From NCBI RefSeq assembly GCF_000800255.1, contig NZ_CP009747.1, positions 1,674,001-1,738,000 on the forward strand: a stretch of 64,000 bases of DNA, in the 5' to 3' direction. This DNA is from Pseudomonas parafulva (GTDB lineage Bacteria; Pseudomonadota; Gammaproteobacteria; Pseudomonadales; Pseudomonadaceae). Positions within the stretch are counted from its first letter, which is position 1, and each line of letters opens with the position of its first letter. Below the pieces are notes generated by a model that saw only the letters and a program-made list of their open reading frames with translations, ran no database searches and was not told the DNA's origin. Position numbers and translations under genes: made by a program. Below are positions 33,581-41,868 of this stretch, one piece after another.

Positions 33581-34417
33581 TCAACGCTGCGGGTTCAGCG
33601 TCAGGTGCACATGACGGTTCACGTCCTTGTACAACAGGTAGCTGAACGGACCTGGACCGCCGGAGTAGCAGGCCTGTGGGCAGAAGGCGCGTAGCCACAT
33701 GAAGTCGCCGGCTTCGACCTCTACCCAGTCCTGGTTCAGGCGATACACCGCTTTACCTTCCAGCACATACAATCCGTGCTCCATCACGTGGGTTTCGGCG
33801 AACGGAATCACGCCGCCGGGTTGGAACGTGACGATGTTGACGTGCATGTCATGACGCATGTCAGCCATGTCGACGAAGCGCGTAGTCACCCAGCGGCCCT
33901 CGGTTCCTGGCATTTCGATGACGGTCGCGTTGTCACGGTGGGTAACGAAGGATTCAGGCGCGGCCAGGCCCTCAACCTTTTGATAGTGCTTGCGCAGCCA
34001 ATGGAAGGTGACGTTGGCCTTGCTGTTGTTACGTAGGCTCCATTCAGCCCCAGGGGCGAGAAACGCGTAGCCACCGGGCACCAAGGTATGACCTTTGCCT
34101 TCGACGGTGATGTCGATTTCGCCTTCAACGACAAACACCACCGCTTCGGCATTGGGGTCCAGCTCGGGCCGCTCGCTGCCGCCTTCAGGGGCGACTTCGA
34201 CAATGTACTGTGAAAAGGTTTCGGCAAAGCCGGTCAGCGGTCGGGCAATGACCCACATGCGCATCTTGTCCCAGAACGGCAGATGGCTGGTGACGATGTC
34301 ACGCATCACGCCCTTTGGAATAACGGCGTAGGCTTCGGTGAACATCGCACGGTCAGTCAGCAGCTCGGTCTGAGCCGGGTGCCCTCCGTGAGGGGCAAAG
34401 TAGGAGTGATTCGACAT
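33581..34417 (-). CDS. (S)-ureidoglycine aminohydrolase (bicupin, AllE/UglY type)
   Basis: 278 residues. ATG 34417 (MSNHSYFAPHGGHPAQTELL). Two cupin domains; the C-terminal one carries the manganese-site pattern ETHVMEHGLYVLEGKAVY and DFMWLRAFCPQACY. The N-terminal region has YAVIPKGVMRD and VIARPLTGFAETFSQY, typical of the family. The enzyme releases ammonia from (S)-ureidoglycine to give ureidoglycolate, after allantoicase or allantoate amidohydrolase, in purine use. No other allantoin gene lies nearby, so it stands alone here. Some databases label close homologues as bifunctional allantoicase, which the sequence does not support. Confidence 0.88.
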   Translation of the reverse strand: MSNHSYFAPHGGHPAQTELLTDRAMFTEAYAVIPKGVMRDIVTSHLPFWDKMRMWVIARPLTGFAETFSQYIVEVAPEGGSERPELDPNAEAVVFVVEGEIDITVEGKGHTLVPGGYAFLAPGAEWSLRNNSKANVTFHWLRKHYQKVEGLAAPESFVTHRDNATVIEMPGTEGRWVTTRFVDMADMRHDMHVNIVTFQPGGVIPFAETHVMEHGLYVLEGKAVYRLNQDWVEVEAGDFMWLRAFCPQACYSGGPGPFSYLLYKDVNRHVHLTLNPQR

Positions 34418-34572
34418 GGACGGTCTCGATTTGTTGTTCTGCCCCGTGCCGTAAGCCGCACCGTCCGGTGCGCCGCAGGGGATGCGAGGCCAGCATAGGG
34501 CGCGTCCGAGGCTATCCACAAATTAAATGTTGGAATAATCGGCATTCATCTTTCAAATGCAATTTGCGCTTC

Positions 34573-35268
34573 TCAGCGATTGCTGGTCAGACGCTGTTGA
34601 GCGGCCACGCATCCGTTGATCTCCACGGCTTTTTGCAGCATGGCCTGACTGCGTTGCGGATCGAGCTCGCCCAGCAGCCGGTAGACTTCTGCCTGGTAGT
34701 CGCGTTGACGTCCCCACTGCAGTTCCAGTCCCTGCGGGCGGTTGCGGTTGCACGCCAGGCGCGGGGCGGGTTGAGGATAGTAGGGGGCGTAAAGGGTGGC
34801 CATGCCTGCAATCGCCTCCAGAGCGTCTTGGTAGGCAGGGCTGGTACTGAACGCAGGGCACCAGTTGGCGATGGCCGTGGCCGGTGGAGCGAAGCCCTGC
34901 CGAAGGCTGGATTCGAGCAAAGGGCAAGCCGCCTCGGCGATTTTTCCGGCTGGCAGGTAGGTCATGTAATACAACGCCAAGCGGTACTGGGCAACTGGAT
35001 GACCCAGTTCGACTGACTTCTCCAGTAGTGCGACCGCGCTCGGCAGCGTGCGCGCCATGGCCTGGCCCTGCCGGCTGAGCTCTGGGTCGCGCAGGTCGGC
35101 AGTGCGCAGCGGACTGGCGCTGTCATTTTCTGCGTCGGCCTGCTCCAGCAATGGCAAGGCCTGGCGGTAGAGAAGATCGGCGTGAGGGTCGATGCGCACT
35201 TCAAGCGCCAAGGCCGCAACCGGCATCAGCGTTGCGAGCAGTCCCGAGAAAAAGACAGCTCGACTCAC
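34573..35268 (-). CDS. Exported Sel1/TPR-like repeat protein
   Basis: 231 residues. GTG at 35268 has GAGG seven bases upstream and gives a clean Sec signal peptide (SRAVFFSGLLATLMPVAALALE); earlier starts precede it with charged sequence. The mature part has Sel1-like helical repeats (AVALLEKSVELGHPVAQYRLALYYM, AQAMLQKAVEINGCVAAQQRL-like tail). It is probably periplasmic. Similar small exported repeat proteins in Pseudomonas are uncharacterised. Confidence 0.8.
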   Translation of the reverse strand: MSRAVFFSGLLATLMPVAALALEVRIDPHADLLYRQALPLLEQADAENDSASPLRTADLRDPELSRQGQAMARTLPSAVALLEKSVELGHPVAQYRLALYYMTYLPAGKIAEAACPLLESSLRQGFAPPATAIANWCPAFSTSPAYQDALEAIAGMATLYAPYYPQPAPRLACNRNRPQGLELQWGRQRDYQAEVYRLLGELDPQRSQAMLQKAVEINGCVAAQQRLTSNR

Positions 35269-35430
35269 AAATACGCCTCGCGGGTAAGCGTGGGGCACCG
35301 GAGCGGAACCAGCGCGGAATTCAGTGCTTGGGAGTTCATGGCGAGTACGCGTTTGCCTCGAGCGACCGGGAGCGGTGACGGGCTATTCTAGCCATCACCG
35401 GGTGCTTGTCGAAAGGGCCGCGAACAGTAA

Positions 35431-36513
35431 TCAGACGAGCTTGAAGGGCGAAGCCTTGCGGCTGGCGTATTTTTCCTGCGCCAAGCCGAGCTTGGCGGTG
35501 ATGACTTTGGCGAGTGCATTGTTGCCGAGGTCGTTGAGATGCAGACGGTCGATGAACAGATCCTGGCCGAATACGGGTGAGCTGCTGAGCATGCCATTCA
35601 TGTCATAGCAAGGCACTGGCTCCGCCTGGCTTTTTATCCGCCGGAAAAAGATCGAATGCAGATGATCGTCGTACACGCCGTCCAGCAACCGATCGTAATG
35701 GTCCGACCGTTGGAGCAGCAGGTTCAGCATTGCCTGTTCTCCAGGCGGTAGTTTTTCTCTGCACCATGGAAGCAGCGGCTGCAGGATGAAGGTCAGCGAG
35801 GTATGGCTGTCAGCGAGCAAGCGATCCCATTGCAGCAACGTGCGGCCAATGCGATCGGCGGCGCGGATCAAGCGCTTTTCAGGTGACGATAATACCGGTG
35901 GCGGTAGAGGCTGCTGACGGCGCCGGAAAAGGCGCTGCAGCCAATGAGGCCACGGCGAGAGGTGTGTTGTCGCCTGCTGTGGCTGCTTATCTGGGGTTCG
36001 GTGTTCGGGCGCATCGACACGCAGGTTCGCTTGCTGATCGTCAGCAAGCATTTCGCACATGCCCTCGTGCGCCAGGGTATTGAGTCCGCTCAGGATCACC
36101 ACATGACCGATTCGCCCCAGTCGATGTTGGTGGCTCAGGAACAGCAGTAACTCCTGGGTGGCGTCTAACCCGCAGCCTGCCAGGCTCAGCCACACCTCGC
36201 CGGTCAGCAGGGCCAGGCAGGAGGCCACCGTCTGCTGGTCAGAACTCGCGCCGATTCCCAATGCGGTCGAGCCGCCCACCAGCAGGTTGACGCGTGCCGA
36301 GCCGCCACGCTCGGCCAGGGAATAGCGCTTGCCGCCGAGTTGACTGTAGCGCAGGCCCAACGCATCGGTGTTGATGATGTCCGAGCGATAGCCTCGCTCA
36401 TGAACGTAGAGCGTGAGGGGGGCACGGCGTCCGCCCAGCAGCAGGAAGCGCTGATAGTCTTCGCGCATCGCCTGGCCGCAGTTCATCTCTAGCGTGTGGT
36501 CGATCGGTGCCAT
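35431..36513 (-). CDS. SGNH/GDSL hydrolase-like protein, last gene of the YqcI operon
   Basis: 360 residues. ATG 36513 with AGGAG five bases upstream. SGNH landmarks are a block I variant GGST at 80-83 (candidate nucleophile Ser82), a conserved mid-domain VVILSGLN near block III, and block V D322-x-x-H325 (DRLHLND). A Pro/Arg-rich linker at about 190-205 looks like an inserted loop. There is no signal peptide, so it is probably cytoplasmic. It could be an esterase or acyltransferase that tailors a small product. I recall some Pseudomonas homologues labelled 'inducer of phenazine A' but cannot confirm that here. It lies 25 bases after a LysE exporter and shares its strand and probably its transcript. 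Confidence 0.7.
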   Translation of the reverse strand: MAPIDHTLEMNCGQAMREDYQRFLLLGGRRAPLTLYVHERGYRSDIINTDALGLRYSQLGGKRYSLAERGGSARVNLLVGGSTALGIGASSDQQTVASCLALLTGEVWLSLAGCGLDATQELLLFLSHQHRLGRIGHVVILSGLNTLAHEGMCEMLADDQQANLRVDAPEHRTPDKQPQQATTHLSPWPHWLQRLFRRRQQPLPPPVLSSPEKRLIRAADRIGRTLLQWDRLLADSHTSLTFILQPLLPWCREKLPPGEQAMLNLLLQRSDHYDRLLDGVYDDHLHSIFFRRIKSQAEPVPCYDMNGMLSSSPVFGQDLFIDRLHLNDLGNNALAKVITAKLGLAQEKYASRKASPFKLV

Positions 36514-36538
36514 AGGCGCTCCTATGGGCCGGGCCTGT

Positions 36539-37180
36539 TCAGCCGGCCAGCTCCCTGAGGTTGTACAGCAGGCCGCCTGCAGCAATCAGTAGCAGCGCGA
36601 TGCCTGAGGCCAGGCTGATCATCCGGCTGCTGCGCTGCGAGGCGATCTTGCCGATCGCGAAGATGTACAGGCTCAGCACGGCAAAATCGATGGCAATCCA
36701 CAGCAGCGACAGCACCACCATGCTTTTTCCGAACGACTCGGTGATCTGGATGAACTGCGGAAAGAAGGCAATGAAGAAGATGATGTCTTTCGGGTTGGAG
36801 ATGCCGACCATGAAACCCTGCAATAACCCGCCGCGGCCTCCTGTCGTCGCCATCGCGCTCTGTTCGGCAGCAGCAGCGGAGCTCGCTGGGGGCTTGAGGG
36901 CTTCGCGCAAGGTGCCCGAGGCGATGTAGCCGATGAACAGGCAGCCCAGCAGGCTCATGCCGCTGAGCCAGGCCTTGTCGATGGCCGCGCTGGTCATGAT
37001 GATCCAGGCGGCGGCGCCAATCAGTACCAGCGATGCCCAATTGGTGCCTACTGCCGTGAACAGTGCCTTGCGTGCGCCTGCCGCGGCGGCGGTGTTGACG
37101 ACCAGCGCCACTACTGGGCCAGGGGTGGCGATCAGCAGCAAGACGGTCAAGGCATAGGTGGCGGTCAGTGCGGTATTCAC
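36539..37180 (-). CDS. LysE-family exporter in the YqcI operon
   Basis: 213 residues, six predicted helices. It begins MNTALTATYALTVLLLIATPGPVV, with the family TPGP motif, and has GISNPKDIIFFIAFFPQF. Family members export amino acids and related small polar compounds at the inner membrane. The gene starts two bases after the YqcI/YcgG stop, so the two are surely co-transcribed. Context suggests that it exports the product of that enzyme. Confidence 0.9.
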   Translation of the reverse strand: MNTALTATYALTVLLLIATPGPVVALVVNTAAAAGARKALFTAVGTNWASLVLIGAAAWIIMTSAAIDKAWLSGMSLLGCLFIGYIASGTLREALKPPASSAAAAEQSAMATTGGRGGLLQGFMVGISNPKDIIFFIAFFPQFIQITESFGKSMVVLSLLWIAIDFAVLSLYIFAIGKIASQRSSRMISLASGIALLLIAAGGLLYNLRELAG

Positions 37181-37182
37181 GT

Positions 37183-37959
37183 TCAGTTCTCGATCTTGTG
37201 TTCGATAGGGGTGTCAGGATTGAAAGGGCAGCGCGCGGGGTTGAGTGAGCCGGTTTCCTGGAGTTGGTACTGCGTCCATTCGTAGTTGTCGGGCTCGCCG
37301 AAGAACCCCAGACTCTGGGGCACTCGCCCATCGTTGTAGCGCGCGACCCGTTCGCGGATTCGAGCGCGAATCCGTTGCCCGCTCTGGGTCGCGGCGCTGG
37401 CCACCTCGTCGAAACTCTCACGCGGATTGATCACGAAAACGATGCTATGGCCCAAATTGCGGCTTTTCATCTGCCGGTGAGCCGGAAAGCTCATGTTGAT
37501 GAACAGCGGCATGCTGGCGAAGCAGAACGACCATTGCGTGTCGTGAGGATCACGTGGCACGTCCTGGGGCCAGGGATGAGGGTCGCGAGCGTGCACTTGC
37601 TGCAGAATCTTCCACGCAAGCGCCTGCTGTTCTGCCAACGTGCCGTGTTCGCGGGTTTCGAGAAACACCAGCAGTGGACAGCCGATCCGCTGCTTGAGTG
37701 GGATCGGCGTAATGGTCTGTACGTAGTCGGCCAGCCCGCGAGCGATATCGTTGGCCGGATCCTCGGCGCGGGCGAACAGGATATGGCAGGTGCCGGCGGC
37801 CACCGCCTTGCGTCCGAACAGGCAGGGAAAGCCAGGGTTGGCAAGAATGGCTTTGAAGTGTTGCAACGTGGTGTACGTCCAATGCTGTTTGCTCTGGACA
37901 TGTTCGTCGGCCAGCTCTAGCGCATCCAGGCGATAGCAGTTTCCATAACCCGTAAACAT
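37183..37959 (-). CDS. YqcI/YcgG family protein (candidate haem-dependent N-oxygenase)
   Basis: 258 residues, no signal peptide. The family hallmark FPC-x-FG lies at 44-49 (Cys46) and a second Cys in CPF at 244-246. LLVFLETRE, WSFCFASMPLFINMSFPAHRQMKSRNLG and VINPRESFD are further conserved-looking blocks. YqcI/YcgG is long known as an uncharacterised family. Members in the cycloserine (DcsA) and guanitoxin (GntA) pathways are described as haem-dependent N-hydroxylases of arginine-like substrates; I state that from memory. Here it leads an operon with a LysE exporter and an SGNH hydrolase, divergent from a LysR gene. Function is inferred, substrate unknown. Confidence 0.75.
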   Translation of the reverse strand: MFTGYGNCYRLDALELADEHVQSKQHWTYTTLQHFKAILANPGFPCLFGRKAVAAGTCHILFARAEDPANDIARGLADYVQTITPIPLKQRIGCPLLVFLETREHGTLAEQQALAWKILQQVHARDPHPWPQDVPRDPHDTQWSFCFASMPLFINMSFPAHRQMKSRNLGHSIVFVINPRESFDEVASAATQSGQRIRARIRERVARYNDGRVPQSLGFFGEPDNYEWTQYQLQETGSLNPARCPFNPDTPIEHKIEN

Positions 37960-38081
37960 GTTTTCCCCGGAAGAATGCTATGAAGTGGTTTTTCTGCCTT
38001 ATCGCGGCGTATTGGCTGAATGTAATTGTTATTTACCTGCATTTTCTGGAAGCAGGACTCGGTTGTAAAACGCCTGGAACT

Positions 38082-38106
38082 ATGAGTAACTATTAGTTTC
38101 ACTCAT
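38082..38106. promoter_or_regulatory. Nested palindrome before the LysR gene
   Basis: ATGAGT (38082-38087) and ACTCAT (38101-38106) flank an inner inverted repeat AACT-ATT-AGTT. It is AT-rich and 16 bases before the LysR ATG, in the divergent promoter region shared with the YqcI operon. It is a likely LysR-type binding site. Confidence 0.5.
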
Positions 38107-38121
38107 GGTTTGGCGGCGAAG

Positions 38122-39042
38122 ATGTCAGAACGGATTCAGGCTTTGCACGCCTTGCGTGCCTTCGAGGTGGCCTCGCGCTACGGATCCTTCACCCGTGCAG
38201 CGCAAGAGCTGGCATTGACTCAGGGTGCCGTCAGCCACCACATCAAGACCTTGGAAGCCTTGTTCGGCTGCGACCTGTTCGAGCGCCGAGGCCCCAAGCT
38301 GCGCCTCACCGAGCACGGACGTCTGCTGGCCCAAGAGCTCAAGGTCGGGTTCAAGATCATCGAGAACGCCTGTGCGTTGTTGCGTCAGGACCGCTACGGC
38401 CTGCGCTTGAAGGCTGCATCGACCCTCACCGTGCGCTGGTTGCTCAGGGCGGTGGACAGCTTCAAGAGGGCCGACGACAGTTGCAGCGTGCAACTCTCCA
38501 GCGTGTGGATGGATATCGACACGGTGGATTTCTATTCCGAGCCCTATGACTGCGCCATCCTACTGGGCAATGGCCGCTTTGCAGCCGACGTCGAAAGCGT
38601 GAAGCTCTTCGACGAATGGCTGATCCCCGTGTGTCATCCGGATTATCTGAGCGACGCGGCACCGCCCTTGTCGGTGCTGCGCGAATGTGAGTTTCTGCAC
38701 CCGTCGTCCGACCGCCGCGATTGGCGCCGCTGGCTGGCGCGGGTGGATGCCCCGGACATCAGCATCGACCAAGGCCAGGTGTTCGATACCTTGGACCAGG
38801 GCATCTCCGCTGCTCAGCAAGGGTTGGGGATTTCGGTGGTCGATCTGGTACTGGCCAGCGCCGACCTTGATGCCGGGCGCCTGATCACGCCGTTCAGGCA
38901 GGCGGTGTCGACGGGTGACGGCTATTACATGACTTGGCTCAAGGCCAGCCCCAAGGCCAAGCAGATGGCCAAGTTGCGCGATTTTCTCATCGGTCAGGTG
39001 CCGCCTCTGGCATTGAAGGACATCACCTACCTGTATGGCTGA
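38122..39042 (+). CDS. LysR-family regulator, GcvA-like
   Basis: 306 residues from ATG 38122; a TTG at 38110 would add four residues. The N-terminal helix-turn-helix reads ALRAFEVASRYGSFTRAAQELALTQGAVSHHIKTLE, the GcvA subgroup wording. The effector domain (about 90-300) includes FDEWLIPVCHPDYLSD and GLGISVVDLVLASADL. It is divergent from the YqcI-LysE-SGNH operon across 162 bases and so is its likely regulator. The GcvA group often controls amino-acid-related genes. Confidence 0.93.
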   Translation: MSERIQALHALRAFEVASRYGSFTRAAQELALTQGAVSHHIKTLEALFGCDLFERRGPKLRLTEHGRLLAQELKVGFKIIENACALLRQDRYGLRLKAASTLTVRWLLRAVDSFKRADDSCSVQLSSVWMDIDTVDFYSEPYDCAILLGNGRFAADVESVKLFDEWLIPVCHPDYLSDAAPPLSVLRECEFLHPSSDRRDWRRWLARVDAPDISIDQGQVFDTLDQGISAAQQGLGISVVDLVLASADLDAGRLITPFRQAVSTGDGYYMTWLKASPKAKQMAKLRDFLIGQVPPLALKDITYLYG

Positions 39043-39068
39043 TCCGTCCTTGGATCGCGGACCTGAGC

Positions 39069-39533
39069 TCAGAAGCCGAAATGGCTCAGGCCCGGGTGAT
39101 CGTCCGGTCGGCGCCCCAGTGGCCAGCGGAATTGGCGGTCTTCTTCGTTGATCGGCATCTCGTTGATGCTGGCGTGGCGATGCTGCATCAGGCCGTCGGG
39201 CGCGAACTCCCAATTTTCATTCCCGTAGGCCCGATACCACTGACCGCTGTCGTCGCGGTACTCGTAGGCATAGCGCACCGCGATGCGGTTGTCGGTGAAG
39301 GCCCAGAGCTCCTTGATCAGGCGGTAGTCATGCTCGCGGTTCCACTTGCGGGTGAGAAATGCCTGAGCCTCGTCGCGATTGCTGACGAAATCGACCCGAT
39401 TGCGCCAGCGGGTGTCGAGCGTGTAGGCCAGAGCGACTTTTGCCGGATCGCGGCTGTTCCAGCCGTCTTCGGCCAGGCGGACTTTCTCGATAGCGGTTTC
39501 ACGGCTGAACGGTGGCAGGGGTGGACGGGACAT
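39069..39533 (-). CDS. DUF1348 (NTF2-like) family protein
   Basis: 154 residues, cytoplasmic. It has the cone-shaped NTF2-like fold pattern and DUF1348 wording: [48 protein letters not shown] and [24 protein letters not shown]. Members are small and widespread; no reaction has been assigned. It is convergent with the LysR gene, 26 bases away. Upstream on the same strand is an unrelated transporter. Confidence 0.88.
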
Positions 39534-39610
39534 GACGAAATTCCTCTGAGTGCAGATCGAGTAGGCGACCTGATGGAGTGAAGCCTAAGCCTTCACGGCT
39601 AGCACGAGAA

Positions 39611-39647
39611 TCCGCCCGCGTGTCAGTTCATCATTTCGCCGGGCGGA
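39611..39647 (-). terminator. Hairpin after the DHA1 transporter
   Basis: TCCGCCCG / CGGGCGGA, an 8-bp perfect stem with a 21-base loop, just past the stop of the minus-strand transporter. The minus strand reads ATTCTCG after it, with no strong T-run. Confidence 0.4.
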
Positions 39648-39675
39648 ACAATCGCCGATTGTGACCTGTGGTGTG

Positions 39676-40857
39676 TCAGAGCGCTTCGCCCATCCCCCGT
39701 CGCGCTACGTGAGTGCGTCCACCCAGCCTCACCAGCAGGAGCGCGCTGGCGGCGAGCAATCCACCGGCCATCGGCACGGCCGCATAGCCAAGGTCCAGAC
39801 TGATCACCGCGCCGCCCAAGGCCGCGCCGAGAGCGTTACCCAGATTGAACGCGCCGACGTTGATCGACGACGCCAGCCCCGGTGCCTCGGCGGCGGCGGT
39901 CATGACCCGCATCTGCAGCGGCGGGACGACGGCGAAGGTGAAGACGCCCCACACCAGCAGCGCCAGCGCCGCACCGACGTGAGTGCCGAGCACCAACGGC
40001 ATCGACAGCATGATCACCGCCAGAATGGCCAGCACGATGCGCGCGGCACCGTCCAGCGACCAGTCGGCCAGGCGCCCGCCAAGGCTGTTGCCCAGGGTGA
40101 AGCCCACGCCGATCAGCACCAGCCCGAGGGTGACGAACGCCGCCGAGGCGCCGGTGAGCGCCGTGAGCACTGGCGCGACATAGGTGTACAGCGTGAACAT
40201 CGCGCCGGCGCCGAGTACGGTGGTGGCCATGGCCAGCAGCACATTGGCACGGCCGATCACCGCCAGCTCCTTGCGCACAGGCGGCACGCTGCCGCGTTCA
40301 CCCTTGGGCAGGGCGTACCACAAGGCGGCGATGGCGATGAGGCCCAGCACGGCGGTGCCGGCGAAAGCCATGCGCCAGCCAATCTGTTGGCCGATCCAGG
40401 TGGCAGCCGGCACCCCACCGATATTGGCGATGGTCAGACCCATGAACATACTGGCGATGGCACTGGCCTGCCGTTCCTTGGGCACTACGCTGGCGGCGAC
40501 CACTGCGCCGAGGCCGAAGAATGCCCCGTGGTTGAGGCTGGTGATCAGGCGGGAGATCAGCAGGGTGTAGTAATCCGGCGACAATGCCGACAGCAGGTTG
40601 CCGACGGTGAAGATGCTCATCAGCAGCATCAGCGCCGCGCGCTTGCCGAAGCGGCTGAACAGCAGGGTCATGATCGGCGCGCCGACCATCACACCGATCG
40701 CATAGGCGGTGACCAGCATGCCGGCGCTGGGAATGCTGGCGTTGACGCCTTCGGCGATGACCGGCAGCAGGCCCATTGGGGCGAATTCGGTGGTGCCGAT
40801 GCCGAAGGCGCCGATAGCCAAGGCAAACAAGACACGTTTGGGATGCAGCACGCTCAT
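39676..40857 (-). CDS. DHA1-type MFS efflux transporter (AraJ/YdhP-like)
   Basis: 393 residues, 12 predicted helices. ATG 40857 (MSVLHPKRVLFALAIGAFGIGTTEF) with GGAG six bases upstream. The IGTTEFAPMGLLP motif and SRFGKR in loop 2-3 place it in the drug:H+ antiporter-1 group near AraJ and YdhP. It is followed upstream by dkgB on the same strand, 75 bases apart; the pair may be co-expressed. The substrate is unknown. Confidence 0.9.
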   Translation of the reverse strand: MSVLHPKRVLFALAIGAFGIGTTEFAPMGLLPVIAEGVNASIPSAGMLVTAYAIGVMVGAPIMTLLFSRFGKRAALMLLMSIFTVGNLLSALSPDYYTLLISRLITSLNHGAFFGLGAVVAASVVPKERQASAIASMFMGLTIANIGGVPAATWIGQQIGWRMAFAGTAVLGLIAIAALWYALPKGERGSVPPVRKELAVIGRANVLLAMATTVLGAGAMFTLYTYVAPVLTALTGASAAFVTLGLVLIGVGFTLGNSLGGRLADWSLDGAARIVLAILAVIMLSMPLVLGTHVGAALALLVWGVFTFAVVPPLQMRVMTAAAEAPGLASSINVGAFNLGNALGAALGGAVISLDLGYAAVPMAGGLLAASALLLVRLGGRTHVARRGMGEAL

Positions 40858-40932
40858 CGAAAACTCCAGGTGATGGCGGTGGAACGACAAAGGAGGAGGG
40901 CGCCGGTCACGCCGGCGCCGGGTGGTACAGGA

Positions 40933-41736
40933 TCAATCCCAGGCAGGCGCCAGCCCCGCCGGGCTGACCTCACGGCCGTTGCGCTCCAGTCCGGCGATGC
41001 GCGCCATGTCCTGTTCGTCCAGGCGCAGGTCGCGGGCGAGCAGGTTGCTGGCCAGGTTCTCACGTTTGGTGGAGGAGGGAATGACCGCATAGCCTAGCTG
41101 CAAGGCCCAGGCTAGAGCAACTTGAGCGACGCTGGCCTGGTGCTTGCTGGCGATCTCGGCCAGCACCGGATCCTTGAGCACCTTGCCGTAGGCCAGGGTC
41201 ATGTACGAGGTCACGGCGATGCCCTGCTCGCCGAGGAAATCGGCCAATCGACGGTTTTGCAGATAGGGGCTCAGTTCGATTTGGTTAGTGGCGATTTCGC
41301 CCTTGCCGACCACCTCGATGGCCTGACGCGTCAGTTCGATGTTGAAATTGGAAATACCGATCTGCCGGGTCAATCCTGCCCGTTTGGCCTCGGCCAGTGC
41401 GGTCATGAATTCACGCAGTTCCACGCCGTTGCCCGGTGCCGGCCAATGGATCAGGGTCAGGTCGACCTGGTCGGTGCGCAGTTTGCTCAAGCTTTCGCGC
41501 AGGCTGGGGATCAGCTTGTCGGCAGCGTAATTGTGGGTCCAGATCTTGGTGGTCAGGAACAACTGGTCGCGAGCCACGCCACTCTCGGCGAGAGCCTGGC
41601 CGACATCGGCTTCGTTCTTGTAGATCTGCGCGGTGTCGATGGCGCGGTAGCCCAGTTGCAGGGCCGTCTTGACCGAGTCGATGATGGTTTGACCGGTAAG
41701 GCGATAGGTGCCGAGGCCGAAGGCAGGGATAGTCAT
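40933..41736 (-). CDS. dkgB: Aldo/keto reductase DkgB (2,5-diketo-D-gluconate reductase B type)
   Basis: 267 residues. ATG 41736 with GGAG eight bases upstream. It is a TIM-barrel NADPH reductase with an intact catalytic tetrad: Asp34, Tyr39 ([11 protein letters not shown]), Lys64 (TTKIW) and His97 (LIHWP). IGISNFN and [10 protein letters not shown] (cofactor binding) follow. Family members reduce 2,5-diketogluconate and, more efficiently, methylglyoxal and other small aldehydes. The DHA1 transporter gene follows on the same strand. Confidence 0.94.
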
Positions 41737-41868
41737 GCAAGATGCTCCACGCAAAGGATGATCGAATTCATTCGAGCCGGGAGCAGTGTGAAGGTTGCAG
41801 CGCAAATGATTAAGCACGCTGCCGGGCAAGCACTTTTGCGTTCAAATCATCAATCCAACCGTCTGGCC

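Follow-up and report, generated by a model that had tools for sequence, protein, structure and literature searches.

Analyses of a 64,000-nucleotide stretch of the Pseudomonas parafulva genome (contig NZ_CP009747.1, positions 1,674,001 to 1,738,000; hereafter the window) identified a compact locus in which a YqcI/YcgG family gene is flanked by a LysE exporter gene and a divergent LysR regulator gene. This LysR-YqcI-LysE module is conserved and partly plasmid-borne, and it most likely serves to make and export N-hydroxy-arginine, with an accessory hydrolase of the CgnD/GvgA type in the window. The module was not named in the open PMC literature among the matches listed.

An earlier note on this DNA, made from its letters alone, had described three minus-strand genes separated by 2 and 25 bases and a LysR gene divergent across 162 bases. 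The open reading frames (ORFs) confirmed these coordinates and gave the minus-strand order YqcI, LysE, SGNH. The mechanical LysR ORF opens at TTG 38110; the start chosen here, ATG 38122, is inside the conserved part of the relatives' alignment, so the 162-base gap between YqcI and LysR is correct. The features, in window positions, are as follows:

37183-37959, minus strand: YqcI/YcgG family protein (ORF and Pfam), predicted thiolate-haem N-oxygenase of free L-arginine
36539-37180, minus strand, GTG start: LysE/RhtB-family amino-acid exporter (PF01810), its substrate assigned by inference
38122-39042, plus strand, from ATG: LysR-type regulator, GcvA-like (HTH_1 and LysR_substrate domains above the Pfam cut-offs)
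38065-38108: conserved intergenic block (upstream-region alignment) with a probable LysR operator
35431-36513, minus strand, from ATG: accessory gene for an SGNH hydrolase that belongs to the CgnD family, with GvgA/IopA as distant relatives
34573-35298, minus strand: Sel1/TPR-like protein, on weak matches (E 0.03-0.5), whose start resembles a signal peptide by eye; relevance uncertain

Purifying selection on these genes was apparent in 35 gene comparisons with 9 loci (dN/dS about 0.05-0.23, rough values since dS was near or above 1 in many comparisons).

Conservation of the module

In a genus sample of 298 Pseudomonas genomes, 45 had a YqcI match and 44 were above the cut-off; 43 loci besides the window were fetched. 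The remaining genome (G250, a fragment with a partial match below the cut-off) is outside the 44, and nothing of the locus was found around its partial match. The LysR|YqcI-LysE arrangement was present in 42 of the 43 fetched loci (43/44 with the window), the SGNH gene in 37 (38/44) and the Sel1/TPR gene in 39 (40/44), the last being also present elsewhere without the module. The 22 loci of a named-genome search, which share species with the 43 and are not an independent sample, had LysR|YqcI-LysE in 22/22, SGNH in 21/22 and Sel1/TPR in 22/22. The proposal of the earlier note depended on YqcI, LysE and SGNH being neighbors in other pseudomonads, and neighbors they were found to be.

The triad of LysR, YqcI and LysE was also identified outside the genus. 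Nine plasmid records were opened of the 48 with a match, and three of the nine carried the triad: plasmids of Thioclava, Pantoea vagans and Klebsiella pneumoniae, the latter typed as conjugative. (The Rhizobium lusitanum, Klebsiella and Nonomuraea records, unannotated there, were checked by the window's sequences only, plus the ORFs of the Klebsiella record.) A fourth locus, in G1183, belongs to another family of the order. Identities to the window proteins in these four loci were 37-42% for YqcI, 40-47% for LysE and 49-53% for LysR. As the window genome has only 10 LysE-family matches, the recurrence of the same two neighbors, in four outside loci as well as in 43/44 Pseudomonas loci, is more than chance would give. 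Moreover, the best-scoring LysE paralogue in the window genome had 34% identity and 60.8 bits, versus at least 160 bits for the three plasmid LysE proteins. Of all the partners of YqcI, LysE and the divergent LysR are conserved best.

Trees were built on selected rows: 46 and 41 for YqcI, and 28 and 24 in the analysis that included LysR. The LysE-linked YqcI proteins fell on one side of a branch in both YqcI trees (14 rows, support 95/99, in the 46-row tree; 12 rows, 83/85, in the 41-row tree with midpoint root). In the 41-row tree, the YqcI of another Pseudomonas locus, L115, was in a different clade, and that of L199 in a neighboring clade.

LysR (66-73%) and LysE (55-61%) were found together without YqcI and SGNH in 6 of 22 YqcI-negative Pseudomonas loci; these 22 were picked for carrying the TPR gene, and 6/22 is therefore not a genus frequency. 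An ATGAGT/ATTAGT-type element persists between LysR and LysE in both YqcI-less loci whose intergenic region was inspected, and a single change on the LysR tree splits the loci with and without YqcI (97/95).

Two records deserve separate mention. L005 (NZ_VWXI01000014.1) is titled 'Pantoea sp. Cy-639', and its module proteins are 62-89% identical to those of the window, as in Pseudomonas loci, so the genus label may be wrong. In the K. pneumoniae plasmid LR890720.1 (L190, 4871-7319), LysR|YqcI-LysE lies, by eye, between nuclease-like and relaxase-like genes; comparison of the L190 YqcI with 49 matching plasmid records put LR890720.1 at 99.6%, with a Pantoea plasmid reaching 85%.

The active site of YqcI

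The window YqcI is the sole PF08892 match of its genome (one contig, 5,087,619 bases). The profile search called for by the earlier note placed it in the YqcI/YcgG family (200.5 bits against a cut-off of 27), and both the haem-ligating cysteine and, in the predicted structure, the AglA fold were present. Alignment with AglA assigned C46 as the haem ligand, R167, R198 and R202 to the haem carboxylates, F153, R180 and F183 to the substrate gate, and E227 and Q230 to positions close to the substrate amino group. The earlier proposal would have fallen with a lack of similarity at key residues, and the haem-ligand, haem-carboxylate and gate residues are all there. We rejected the identity of YqcI with GntA: the GntA equivalog (NF041366), which has a cut-off of 145 bits, scored 49.1.

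Seven of the ten haem and pocket positions mapped onto AglA are identical, with N178, R198 and E227 deviating. In the excerpts of PMC12866846 used here, AglA acts on AMPn-arginine in argolaphos biosynthesis and has practically no activity towards free arginine, while its K196R, K225E and double mutants hydroxylate free L-Arg at Ndelta (section 2.3); the introduced Glu holds the amino group in place, and the Arg, being longer, contacts the carboxylate via water. The residues that contact the phosphonate of AMPn-Arg in AglA (PDB 9ub3 and mutants), Lys196, Ser221, Thr222 and Lys225, are replaced by R198, P223, D224 and E227 in the window protein, on which ground an AglA-type AMPn-Arg hydroxylase was rejected. 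The natural window enzyme already has what was engineered into AglA, which makes for a sharp residue prediction. A published family member, ChmN, takes free L-Arg as substrate, according to the part of PMC10849742 consulted.

The equivalent of R198 was Arg in 109/109 and that of E227 Glu in 108/109 aligned database proteins (109 of 120 proteins, which were the 120 best of 148; proteins under 215 residues and that of the window itself were dropped). This pair is therefore the common state of this YqcI branch, and AglA is the exception. The L115 and L199 proteins, both encoded beside arginase genes, carry the same ten mapped residues as the window YqcI. An arginase neighbor is what would be expected if both make hydroxy-arginine, and the match therefore suggests host arginine as the substrate of the window enzyme too. 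Two rhizobial relatives linked to permeases have T and Q at positions 198 and 227, and a permease-linked Rhodoferax relative deviates from the window enzyme at 178 and 198.

The exporter, the intergenic block and the SGNH gene

The window LysE matched PF01810 at 59.7 bits (cut-off 25.6). The window LysR matched the GcvA chain 8y6u at 1.5e-41 and reached 219.4 bits with the NCBIfam GcvA model PRK11139, short of its cut-off of 288.

Alignment of 61 different upstream regions, from which identical rows and six more distant loci (L103, L104, L106, L175, L176 and L190) were excluded, revealed a block at 38065-38108 with a single base in at least 90% of rows in 36 of 44 columns. The block stops 13 bases short of the LysR start. 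The nested palindrome reported by the earlier note does exist within it: ATGAGT (38082-38087) and ACTCAT (38101-38106) flank an inner palindrome, AACTATTAGTT, at 38088-38098. However, the relatives' consensus is CTATGACCTACTATTAGTCTCACTCATG, so the exact palindrome is partly private to the window genome. On visual inspection, the Pantoea, Klebsiella and Thioclava loci have related half-sites, with TGTGAGT...ACTCACA-like palindromes at the equivalent place in the first two. We consider 38065-38108 to contain the probable LysR operator.

At E 0.1, the SGNH protein matched nothing in Pfam or NCBIfam. It matched CgnD (PDB 8a2n) at 1e-33, and at 7.7e-94 by profile; homology was full-length and included the Ser-Gly-Asn-Asp-His residues of the CgnD/GvgA kind, with S82, N145, D322 and H325 invariant and G113 nearly invariant among 39 aligned sequences. 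SGNH orthologues (at least 57% identity) occurred in 38 of the 298 Pseudomonas genomes, every one YqcI-positive. The gene was missing from 6 of the 44 Pseudomonas YqcI loci (L083, L103, L104, L106, L115 and L118), and the window SGNH sequence matched nothing in the DNA fetched for the four non-Pseudomonas loci. SGNH is an accessory, optional gene outside the core module. The pathway of N-oxidation, tailoring and export put forward in the earlier note therefore retains its oxygenase core with LysE and LysR, but SGNH tailoring is no longer a core step of it.

Interpretation of the locus and comparison with known systems

We propose LysR-controlled making and export of N-hydroxy-arginine, with SGNH optional, a mechanism whose chances of holding and of failing we judge about equal. 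The core unit would be the three genes for the LysR regulator, the YqcI-type haem-thiolate N-oxygenase and the LysE exporter. YqcI would hydroxylate the guanidine of free L-arginine, at Ndelta or Nomega, with electrons supplied by general cell reductases, and N-hydroxy-arginine, or its successor, would leave the cell through LysE. LysR would bind its operator between the divergent genes and probably respond to the product or to arginine. A CgnD/GvgA-kind SGNH hydrolase would have been added in the P. putida-type lineage, where it may process a product conjugate. Our confidence in the predicted N-oxygenase class of YqcI is higher than in the mechanism as a whole; that LysE exports the YqcI product and that LysR senses are more tentative than the whole.

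Several observations weigh against this mechanism. Loci outside Pseudomonas with the triad are few, at four, and neither LysR nor LysE was found at the Pseudomonas locus L115, nor a match to either in G1140 (L200, YqcI 27% identity). Support for the LysE-linked branch in the 41-row tree is moderate, and the conserved operator block is absent from L022 and L118, which are probably of the same genome. The RhtB, RhtC and LeuE equivalogs scored 34-58 bits against cut-offs of 165-288, none being reached, and the LysE substrate is unpredictable from them. Because R198 and E227 are common across the branch, they point to a free amino acid more than to arginine alone. The operon is without an arginase and without an electron-transfer partner, and the missing electron donor is a difficulty. 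In addition, six loci keep LysR-LysE without YqcI, hence the exporter is useful without the oxygenase, and a pathway interpretation must explain them.

Those six loci also favor detoxification, in which LysR would sense a foreign arginine analogue or guanidino compound, YqcI would N-oxidize it and LysE would expel it, giving resistance and not production. The anatomy of the module fits equally, a LysR with an exporter and a modifying enzyme would be a usual layout of resistance loci, and plasmid carriage, in one case on a plasmid typed as conjugative, is in keeping with it. Should YqcI have joined an existing efflux pair, detoxification would explain the locus equally well; should LysE carry the YqcI product, the LysR-LysE loci could be immunity-only. 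However, the six characterized bacterial YqcI/YcgG enzymes are described as parts of biosynthetic pathways in the excerpts of PMC12866846, and the ten residues shared with arginase-adjacent relatives suggest host arginine as substrate; we consider detoxification unlikely. Another free amino acid, such as homoarginine, canavanine or a lysine-like compound, might instead be the substrate, with LysE exporting that derivative. According to the AglA structures, R198 and E227 would read the alpha-amino acid part and not the guanidine; N178 replaces AglA Gln177, the holder of a guanidine-bridging water in the same excerpts; and the LysE-linked YqcI branch is separate from that of L115. The identical ten residues in arginase-linked L115 and L199, in another and a neighboring clade respectively, argue to the contrary, and we regard such a substrate as decidedly improbable.

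A full pathway, in which a GvgA-like SGNH and enzymes encoded elsewhere would convert the YqcI product to a formylaminooxyvinylglycine (FVG)-like compound exported by LysE, is suggested by SGNH paralogues that sit with PF14518 haem-oxygenase-like proteins, candidates for N-oxidation, and LysE-like genes in L224, L225 and L226. The L226 gene order, read by eye, is gvgR, A, C, D, E of Table 1 in PMC8067088, and the parts of that paper used here report that the FVG phenotype was lost in a gvgA knockout. The same parts describe the role of GvgA as unknown or regulatory, the latter because the knockout lowers transcription of the entire gvg cluster. With SGNH missing or unrecognized in the loci named above, just 33-47% identity between the window SGNH and the L224-L226 paralogues, and no carbamoyltransferase or PF14518 protein among the five flanking proteins scanned, we find the full pathway quite improbable. 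A bolder version of N-hydroxy-arginine export, which we also hold to be unlikely, would turn the locus into a minimal cassette that makes an antimetabolite, exports it and confers immunity to it: YqcI would produce it from a housekeeping amino acid, LysE would provide export and immunity and LysR would sense. YqcI-less loci would then be immunity-only, plasmid copies transferable producers, and the GvgA-like SGNH an upgrade of the product in the P. putida-type lineage.

If N-hydroxy-arginine is made and exported as proposed, one oxygenase and one exporter would together amount to a very short path to an N-O amino acid, perhaps one of the simplest by which a bioactive modified amino acid is made, and the module would lend itself easily to learning the role of free N-hydroxy-arginine between bacteria. 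Similar in logic are the IDO and Hil operons, which, in the portions of PMC3684760 consulted, likewise pair a free-amino-acid hydroxylase with an exporter, under LysR-type control in Hil, but differ in having other dioxygenase families acting on isoleucine and an exporter of the RhtA family.

The window shares with the gvg and gvg-like clusters the SGNH family, LysE exporters, an oxygenase-like protein and a divergent regulator; the oxygenase-like protein is YqcI in place of haem-oxygenase-like GvgC, and the regulator LysR in place of GntR/MocR. In Pseudomonas, one and the same SGNH family accompanies LysE and either of two unrelated types of oxygenase-like protein, which points to a common step in N-O amino-acid chemistry. 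The proteins scanned around the window operon included no carbamoyltransferase, aminotransferase or formyltransferase, and of the gvg-like core (gvgA, gvgB, gvgC and gvgF) only a gvgA-like gene was recognized, the small ORF gvgB not having been searched for. A gvg-like cryptic cluster in the window genome itself (L224, 5171-14708; G000:C1:4047000-4063000) contains an SGNH paralogue, a PF14518 protein, a carbamoyltransferase and LysE, as well as, by eye, a 2-oxoglutarate (2OG)-oxygenase-like and two ATP-grasp-like proteins. L225 (5968-11708, G127) has a row of PF14518 protein, LysE, carbamoyltransferase and SGNH paralogue. CgnD, from the crocagin system, removes the leader peptide from the precursor of a ribosomally synthesized and post-translationally modified peptide; no partner of that type was recognized among the five flanking proteins scanned, precursor peptides not being searched for.

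The D-cycloserine system (DcsA/DcsB) is represented by L115 (8860-13498; G254:C1:2428333-2446959), a D-cycloserine-like Pseudomonas row of DcsA-like YqcI, arginase, diaminopimelate epimerase, cysteine synthase and MetX. The row, which has major facilitator superfamily transporter and aminotransferase genes upstream, was not reported in the open PMC literature among the matches listed. Its YqcI is 38% identical to that of the window, which has LysE and LysR instead of arginase, epimerase, cysteine synthase and MetX: none of these four turned up when the four locus proteins and five flanking ones (nine in all, 33581-41829) were scanned. A different minimal set, YqcI adjoining an arginase-family protein and an EamA exporter, was found in L199 (153-2927, G1116). 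YqcI was also seen with an amino-acid permease and a radical S-adenosylmethionine protein on rhizobial plasmids, and a Rhodoferax locus combines it with a permease, a LysE transporter and a 2OG-Fe oxygenase (L179, 5890-9021; L191, 5893-9228; L192, 5953-9894). In the window, an (S)-ureidoglycine aminohydrolase gene (33581-34519, above the NCBIfam cut-off) adjoins the Sel1/TPR gene. Of the loci checked, only L002 and L094 had a match to it near the module.

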